Virus record (IMG/VR): IMGVR_UViG_3300017760_001627
Coordinates: 1-30,485 of that record
Source: a virus
DNA: 30,485 bases
Direction: 5' to 3' (one strand)
Position numbers and translations under genes: made by a program. Positions 4,051 to 30,485 of this stretch are shown piece after piece; the stretch's first letter is position 1, and each line of letters begins with the position of its first letter. The notes under the pieces are model-generated. The model had not been told where the DNA came from. It was given only the letters and a program-made list of their open reading frames with translations, and ran no database searches.

Positions 4051-4058
4051 TATAAATA
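4051..4058 (+). promoter_or_regulatory. T4-type late promoter before gp21 (exact TATAAATA)
   Basis: Exact TATAAATA in the 34-nt gap between paralogue C and gp21. The predicted +1 near 4064 leaves a short leader containing GAGAGATAG before the ATG at 4078. This is the conventional arrangement, in contrast to the zero-leader cases at 2397, 7724, 7959 and 9851. Confidence 0.82.
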
Positions 4059-29928: not shown

Positions 29929-30168
29929 TTGACAACAATAATAGTTAGAAACAATAACGTAGAAAAAGCTATTAGGTCTTTAAAGAGAAAAGTTCAAAAG
30001 GACGGACTCGTTAAAGAGTTAAGAGACAGACAATACTATCAAAAACCTTCAGAAAAGAAGAGAGTAAAGAATAAAGAGAAGATGAAGAAAATCTTCCTTG
30101 CTCAAAAGAAGTGGGATGAATTGAATGGTATTGTTATTGTTAAAGGGAAAAAAGTAAAAAAATTATAG
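29929..30168 (+). CDS. rpsU: Ribosomal protein bS21
   Basis: This is a 79-residue homologue of small-subunit protein bS21. The N-terminus TIIVRNNNVEKAIRSLKRKVQKDG is the classic S21 pattern (strand, then helix with the KAIRxLKRK motif), followed by LRDRQYYQKPSEKKRVKNKE in place of the bacterial YEKPSxKRKRK. The C-terminal ~25 residues (FLAQKKWDELNGIVIVKGKK) extend beyond the shortest bacterial forms. bS21 binds near the anti-Shine-Dalgarno end of 16S rRNA and helps initiation. Viral bS21 genes have been reported in aquatic phages including pelagiphages. The start codon is TTG with a strong GAGGAGG site; it directly follows the DUF262 stop. Confidence 0.92.
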   Translation: MTTIIVRNNNVEKAIRSLKRKVQKDGLVKELRDRQYYQKPSEKKRVKNKEKMKKIFLAQKKWDELNGIVIVKGKKVKKL

Positions 30169-30172
30169 TATT

Positions 30173-30206
30173 TTGCGCCACTTTGTGTCTGTATATATAT
30201 TATAAT
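30173..30206 (+). promoter_or_regulatory. Probable sigma70-type promoter of the non-coding region
   Basis: TTGCGC (30173-30178), a 17-bp spacer and TATATT (30196-30201), immediately followed by a perfect TATAAT (30201-30206) that lacks a well-spaced -35. The T/A-alternating run makes the exact -10 ambiguous. Transcription would begin about 30208-30213 and enter the structured RNA region. Confidence 0.6.
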
Positions 30207-30208
30207 CT

Positions 30209-30335
30209 ATGAGGCAATTCGTAAGCCCTTGTAGAGGCGTGAATGAGTTAGGGTGTCACTCTGTTGTATAACTAAAGACACCCAGCAAATCGGTGATCTT
30301 TGCCAGTTTAACTCCGTGACAAAAGGAAACTGGCA
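30209..30335 (+). ncRNA. Structured RNA candidate / long leader before hsp20
   Basis: About 125 nt after a probable promoter with no convincing gene but several helices. H1: ATTC (30217-30220)/GAAT (30241-30244) enclosing GCC/GGC. H2: GGGTGTC (30251-30257)/GACACCC (30277-30283), seven perfect pairs. H3: GCAAA (30285-30289)/TTTGC (30299-30303). H4: TGCCAGTTT (30301-30309)/AAACTGGCA (30327-30335), nine perfect pairs with a 17-nt loop. H3 and H4 share bases 30301-30303, so they would compete. There is no tRNA layout and no T tract at the end. It may be a small RNA or a regulatory leader for hsp20. Confidence 0.5.
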
Positions 30336-30336
30336 C

Positions 30337-30366
30337 TTGAAATTATATAAATAATTATTATATAAT
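30337..30366 (+). promoter_or_regulatory. Sigma70-type promoter for hsp20
   Basis: TTGAAA (30337-30342), an 18-bp spacer and TATAAT (30361-30366). Predicted +1 is at about 30371-30373, the first bases of the hairpin at 30371. Together with the late octamer inside the spacer, hsp20 seems to have both early and late start sites. Confidence 0.72.
30346..30353 (+). promoter_or_regulatory. Exact late octamer TATAAATA before hsp20
   Basis: Exact TATAAATA, embedded in the spacer of the sigma70-type promoter. It would start late transcripts near 30359. As the surrounding 30 bases are almost only A and T, chance occurrence is more likely here than at the other sites. Confidence 0.5.
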
Positions 30367-30370
30367 AATA

Positions 30371-30392
30371 GACAACGCCTTATAGGGTTGTC
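30371..30392 (+). promoter_or_regulatory. 5'-terminal hairpin of the hsp20 mRNA
   Basis: GACAAC (30371-30376) pairs with GTTGTC (30387-30392), continued after a bulged G by CC/GG around a TTATA loop. The sigma70 promoter upstream would place this hairpin at the very 5' end of the transcript, where such stems often protect mRNA from decay. Confidence 0.65.
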
Positions 30393-30426
30393 GAAAATAA
30401 ACTTTGCTTAACAAAAGGAGGTTTTT

Positions 30427-30485
30427 ATGACCAATAAAGCACTATCTATTTTCAATCAATTAAGACCGTTATCAGTAGGATTTGA
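30427..30485 (+). CDS. Small heat-shock protein Hsp20-like, N-terminus only
   Basis: The first 19 codons of a gene cut by the window end. The visible residues MTNKALSIFNQLRPLSVGF resemble the N-terminus of IbpA/Hsp20-type proteins (the LRPLSVGFD or PLYRSxIGFDR pattern just before the alpha-crystallin domain). Hsp20 genes are common in T4-like marine phages. A perfect AAGGAGG (30415-30421) lies 5 nt before the ATG, and the leader contains a stable hairpin and two kinds of promoter. With so few residues the family call is tentative. Confidence 0.6.
   Translation, partial: MTNKALSIFNQLRPLSVGF

Follow-up and report, generated by a model that had tools for sequence, protein, structure and literature searches.

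Comparative evidence for a structured RNA and a ROSE-like leader ahead of hsp20 in T4-like pelagiphages

Comparison with related phages has provided strong support for a conserved structured RNA encoded in the region between bS21 and hsp20 of a T4-like pelagiphage. Its helices, which are predicted from sequence, covary across more than 100 to more than 130 distinct related phage loci. A structured RNA had already been proposed here in a preliminary description, and the covariation check on related phages came out positive. Two modules can be recognized. Module 1 (30207-30335) is predicted to consist of a hairpin, P1, with a nearly invariant loop, followed by one or two H-type pseudoknots, and module 2 (30371-30421) belongs to the leader of hsp20 and has the anatomy of a ROSE-type element.

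Setting and related loci

The window, that is, the whole stretch of 30,485 nucleotides analysed, is a fragment of a T4-like pelagiphage with the Pelagibacter phages HTVC008M and Mosig (family Kyanoviridae) as relatives. The structured region is placed between bS21 (29929-30168) and hsp20, which starts at 30427 and is cut by the window end; the full hsp20 gene is present in locus L002, where the identical continuation lies at 538-993. Relatives were collected by two scans with the neighbouring proteins and one with a degenerate P1 loop pattern, which gave about 145 distinct motif regions. An hsp20 gene lies no more than 3 kb downstream in 135 of the 145 motif matches, mostly at 120-300 nt. Among the ten matches lacking it, four are random, three are phages in which the gene after the RNA is the normal downstream neighbour of hsp20, and the remainder are truncated contigs. 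Counted from the gene, the strict P1 motif occurs in 70 of the 84 hsp20 loci having full upstream sequence, and a P1 variant was recognized by eye in at least nine more of them. Phage hsp20 at 78-81% identity was also observed in a Porticoccaceae MAG (L287, together with the whole leader) and in a Neomarinimicrobiota MAG (L288), which are therefore probably misbinned phage contigs.

The features of the window, with the RNA helices as predicted, are as follows (basis in brackets).

29929..30168, + strand: phage bS21 gene, upstream neighbour (open reading frame; relatives found)
30172..30179, + strand: 5' arm of outer stem P0, pairing with 30236-30243 (permuted helix length; bS21 association)
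30192..30199, + strand: late-promoter-like octamer TATATATA of the P1 RNA, TATAAATA in relatives (fixed spacing before P1)
30207..30234, + strand: hairpin P1, 30207-30214/30227-30234, loop CNRUUCRUAAGN (stem covaries; the loop pattern found the family)
30236..30243, + strand: 3' arm of outer stem P0 (permuted helix length)
30245..30261, + strand: pseudoknot helix PK1, 30245-30248/30258-30261 (covarying variants in relatives)
30251..30283, + strand: stem P2, 30251-30257/30277-30283 (six of seven pairs with double changes; above 500 shuffles together with PK1)
30291..30316, + strand: pseudoknot helix PK2, 30291-30293/30314-30316 (own pairings of at least 4 bp against permuted ones)
30301..30335, + strand: stem P3, 30301-30309/30327-30335, 3' end of the upstream RNA (PK2 scans; T-rich run in a minority)
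30337..30366, + strand: hsp20 promoter region, TTGAAA-N18-TATAAT overlapping the T4-type late octamer TATAAATA at 30346-30353
30371..30392, + strand: hairpin C of the hsp20 leader, YGCC-loop-GGG with a bulged G at 30377 (covariation)
30402..30421, + strand: hairpin D, UYGCU-type anti-Shine-Dalgarno pairing with AAAGGAGG (motif counts; pairing predicted)
30427..30485, + strand: start of hsp20 (small heat-shock protein), cut by the window end (identical continuation in L002)

Module 1: hairpin P1, outer stem P0 and two pseudoknots

The P1 loop is near-invariant and holds the only strongly conserved bases of module 1. Beyond a constant GG/CC, the P1 stem varies freely in sequence with pairing kept, and its extension averages 4.32 bp against 1.89 bp with permuted partners (maximum 2.36 in 300 permutations), in a test that, like the other permutations used here, preserves column make-up and not the full phylogeny. 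The loop was also considered as a T-loop, which was rejected because its fifth position is U and not A. Outer stem P0 is more restricted. In the bS21 clade its own helix length is 8.86 against 7.45 when permuted (maximum 7.90), and it is absent in other clades; 65 of the 80 loci with bS21 just upstream possess it, against 4 of the 47 without. The MAFFT alignment of P0 and P1 (A1) placed the 3' arm of P0 out of register between subclades, and the three helices P0, P1 and PK2 were for this reason tested by permutation without an alignment.

The 7-bp and 9-bp stems named in the preliminary description are both present and correspond to P2 and P3, each of which is predicted from covariation to be the second helix of an H-type pseudoknot. 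For PK1 and P2 (alignment A3), 85% of cells are paired and nine pairs are altered on both sides, figures biased upward by the author-delimited segments from which A3 was built. The covariation score is 0.357 against 0.152 for shuffled alignments, with none of 500 shuffles as high, and the slide control, in which shifting the partners abolishes the signal of both helices, is the safer part of this result. PK1 variants in relatives include GAGT/ACTC, AGGT/ACCT, ACGT/ACGT, AGGC/GCCT, and GGC/GCC. PK2 has only 3 bp in the window; its pairs in relatives include ACGG/CCGT, ACGCAG/CTGCGT, ACGAAG/CTTCGT, AAGTCT/AGACTT, and TGTAGG/CCTACA. Pairings of at least 4 bp were found in 56 of 107 loops with their own partners, against 23.9 (s.d. 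4.0) with loops swapped between phages, and all 300 permutations (maximum 38) were exceeded in a count whose hairpin selection rule was blind to the pseudoknot. An earlier and looser PK2 scan had given a modest excess only, because hairpins were misidentified. A T-rich run follows P3 in 17 of 125 unique loci. Plausible terminators number about 7-10 among these, and an intrinsic terminator at P3 fits only a minority of loci.

A 5-bp stem (30285-30289/30299-30303) had been described as a competitor of P3 and taken as the sign of a regulatory switch. It is kept in 15 of the 40 loci retaining TTTGCY and is not conserved; the competing-helix switch is therefore unsupported, and the stems named for it belong to pseudoknots. 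Other statements of the preliminary description held up, namely that the region has no tRNA layout and no convincing gene: neither tRNA nor tmRNA was detected in it by ARAGORN or Rfam, and no protein frame is conserved through it. The Rfam scan proposed at that stage returned no family. At gathering score, module 1 with P0 (30172-30335) had no match in the window and 12 relatives (4227 covariance models), and nothing relevant appeared for the window up to E 10. The comparison added P1 with its conserved loop, P0, both pseudoknots and the second promoter (30337-30366), as well as hairpins C and D, which lie just past the interval first reported (30169-30370). A reading of the window sequence GGTGATC as mimicking 16S rRNA was dropped, since inspection by eye showed no conservation.

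Further elements have been observed around module 1 in related loci. Several lineages carry an insertion between PK2 and the hsp20 promoter, a second RNA-like cassette (GGTYCATTGGYC ... GGGTGAGRCCTACC..CTACC; L083 2312-2400, L086, L088, L024, L060, L169, L187, L266, and Mosig, L280, at about 1687-1755); it may form an H-type pseudoknot (TAGG/CCTA) and has no Rfam match. Within this spacer, other lineages show a further conserved cassette, the third (GCGGTAGCCTTAAC, after which some also have TTGCGCTTAGTTTCGCACC; L279 12988, L221 4937, L250 1777, L120 2256, and L280 at about 1775-1900). RNA modules seem to collect in the spacer. The RNA region of Mosig is overlapped by two annotated hypothetical proteins, Mosig_00015 and Mosig_00014 (L280 1599-1847), neither of which is likely to be a real gene. 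Downstream of hsp20, a glutamine riboswitch (RF01739, 49.8 bits) was found in a close relative (L083 3006-3059).

Module 2: the leader of hsp20

ROSE-like thermometers are defined by a U(U/C)GCU sequence that blocks the Shine-Dalgarno (SD) sequence in the 3'-proximal hairpin, and a short form with two hairpins exists in Pseudomonas (PMC3669281). Module 2 lies within the 5' UTR of hsp20, a small heat-shock gene, and adjoins its start codon (30427). Its U(U/C)GCU is predicted to pair imperfectly with the SD in the 3'-proximal hairpin D, and at least one further hairpin, hairpin C, lies upstream. All 64 distinct flank pairs of hairpin C reach 4 bp or more, against 11.2 when permuted (maximum 18), and in alignment A2 the pairing and covariation of this hairpin exceed all 500 shuffles. 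The anti-SD motif, UUGCU or UCGCU, is found in all 93 of 93 hsp20 leaders, against 12 of 818 other genes. It is present in 316 of 325 hsp20 start candidates, the other nine being internal ATGs or, in L291, a downstream operon gene. A dnaK gene on a viral contig (L144) also has the UYGCU motif before its SD, as in hsp20.

Both hairpins also occur in the cyanophages S-RIM2, S-SM1, P-SSM3, S-RSM4, and MED4-213, as well as before SAR11 and alphaproteobacterial small heat-shock genes. The Rfam model ROSE_3 aligns end to end to MED4-213 with 29.2 bits (E 0.015), the best phage match and below the gathering cut-off of 43, and full length to a marine alphaproteobacterial MAG with 26.8 bits. No phage match attained a ROSE gathering score, no Rfam ROSE match was obtained in the window itself, and a search of six records with RF00435 gave no match. 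Predicted SD accessibility at 25 C is 0.27 for hsp20 leaders and 0.50 for other genes, and the predicted opening on warming is gradual and shallow. Module 2 has the anatomy of a short ROSE element and, to judge from these folding and motif data, probably works like a ROSE thermometer. A heat-responsive hsp20 leader, as suggested in the preliminary description, is plausible, with the candidate sensor in the hairpins of module 2 and not in the stems named there.

Promoters, possible functions and known systems

The octamer NATAAATA or TATATATA ends 7-13 nt ahead of the GGC of P1 in 130 of 132 loci, and a single one of 660 background windows contains such an octamer; one of the two loci missing it is a coincidental match (L236, same sequence as L165). 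The T4 late promoter sequence is TATAAATA (PMC3037559), of which the + strand of the window has four copies (2397, 4051, 4726, and 30346) and the - strand none; the copies at 4051 and 4726 precede structural genes. A transcript from the octamer at 30192-30199 would start at the base of P1. The 5' arm of P0 lies upstream of this first start site, so that P0 is possible only in transcripts reading through from bS21. Of the promoter elements first described at 30173-30206, promoter-like sequence is retained at about 30192-30206, and the segment also holds the 5' arm of P0, which had been missed. Between module 1 and the hsp20 leader, a promoter-like element is present in 115 of 131 loci. In the 16 loci without it, P1, one pseudoknot and the hsp20 hairpins make up one compact leader (e.g., L186, L216, and L267), and in phage Mosig a 972-bp gene separates module 1 from hsp20.

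The reading preferred here, to which an even chance is given, is a modular hsp20 leader made of a late-promoter 5' module, for stability or protein binding, and a ROSE-like translation gate. We infer that a T4-type late promoter drives a transcript starting at the base of P1, ahead of a late-expressed hsp20. Late transcripts would carry the folded module 1 at their 5' end, where it may serve as a stability element or bind a protein partner. In most lineages the second promoter would have uncoupled module 1 from hsp20, and the uncoupled module could survive as an RNA of its own, about 100-130 nt long, helped by an AU-rich linker. Module 2 would act as a thermosensor, keeping translation low until warming or ribosome competition opens the hairpin. 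A purely cis role of module 1 is weakened by the promoter that intervenes in most loci and by the whole gene in Mosig, and the 16 loci with module 1 inside the hsp20 leader favour an origin in cis. P0 counts against the modular leader, since its need for read-through from bS21 is at odds with a transcript starting at P1.

An independent late-phase small RNA whose invariant P1 loop acts in trans, by pairing or on a protein, and whose 3' end is protected by the pseudoknots, would account for several of these observations: the own promoter at a fixed spacing, the usual second promoter before hsp20, the confinement of strong base conservation to the P1 loop, the T run behind the 3' hairpin in a minority of loci, and the intervening gene in Mosig. 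A trans-acting phage RNA had been among the first suggestions and draws on the same two promoters. It is the chief rival of the modular leader and the less probable of the two, given the linkage to hsp20 in 135 of 145 motif matches, the continuity with the hsp20 leader in 16 loci, and the usual absence of a terminator after P3. The covariation of P0 and its tie to loci with bS21 would agree with an element at the 3' end of the bS21 mRNA, or with a processing or attenuation structure between bS21 and hsp20, closed by P0. Such a structure is improbable, as P1 and the pseudoknot persist where unrelated genes replace bS21, and a promoter lies inside P0.

Small riboswitches often contain H-type pseudoknots with A-rich third loops. 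The H-type pseudoknots of module 1 and its position as a cis leader in 16 loci could accordingly suggest a ligand-sensing riboswitch for hsp20, and a ligand-responsive leader had been put forward at the outset. The ligand switch is unsupported because most loci have a promoter between module 1 and hsp20. In most loci, too, module 1 is adjoined by no expression platform. No conserved alternative helix coupled to a terminator or SD was found, the competitor stem being kept in too few loci, and Rfam gave no match; the bases of the pseudoknots lack conservation, so that module 1 shows no evident binding pocket. A riboswitch is consequently regarded as very improbable. Single-sequence folding of the region (z = -1.49, with 18 of 200 shuffles folding as well) does not discriminate it from shuffles and was rejected as a test. 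This figure would suit helices that are chance features of AT-rich intergenic DNA, a reading contradicted by the compensatory changes in all helices over more than 100 distinct loci and hardly credible.

The leader of T4 gene 32 has an H-type pseudoknot and resembles module 1 in its place near the 5' end of a T4-type phage mRNA; it belongs to another gene, whereas here one or two pseudoknots stand behind a conserved hairpin, with no sign of autoregulation. Short ROSE-like thermometers (Pseudomonas ibpA; ROSE_3 RF02523, ROSE_2 RF01832, and ROSE RF00435) share with module 2 the small heat-shock gene, the two hairpins, the U(U/C)GCU anti-SD with a bulged G, and a first hairpin that follows the ROSE_3 consensus in its YGCC/GGG pairing and bulged G. 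Module 2 differs in being phage-borne, placed behind a T4-type late promoter, AT-rich, weaker and below the Rfam cut-offs, with thermosensing as a prediction, and the phage leader has the extra P1-pseudoknot module upstream. Phage RNA thermometers include the two-state lambda cIII and the fourU of SPbeta blyA (PMC4166951, PMC10586365), likewise leader structures proposed to respond to temperature; they concern other genes and motifs, in contrast to the UYGCU of the hsp20 leader. Structured RNAs of marine T4-like myoviruses are represented by CfrI, PhotoRC-II, wcaG, and the glutamine riboswitch of T4-like cyanophages (PMC9602691), which have another genomic setting and no Rfam sequence or structure match to the P1-pseudoknot module. 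For pelagimyophages no structured RNA had been reported, and Riboswitch Scanner found no riboswitch in them (PMC7029224). The literature searched, which lay outside subscription papers so that absence is not proof, described neither the module 1 RNA nor a ROSE element in marine phages.

Tentatively, and at somewhat less than even confidence, module 1 may represent an undescribed RNA class of pelagimyophages, in which the invariant P1 loop, held by covarying pseudoknots, would be a late-phase regulator that acts in trans or on hsp20 from the 5' end, alongside a phage-borne ROSE-like thermometer. The pseudoknotted RNA fixed before hsp20 offers a concrete experimental target in HTVC008M or Mosig. 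SAR11 are the commonest bacteria of the ocean, and the phages of SAR11 and of marine picocyanobacteria count among the Earth's most abundant. If true, a ROSE-like gate common to cyanophages, pelagiphages, and SAR11 would mean that marine viruses carry host temperature control on a late-made chaperone, and temperature effects on infection would become testable at the RNA level.
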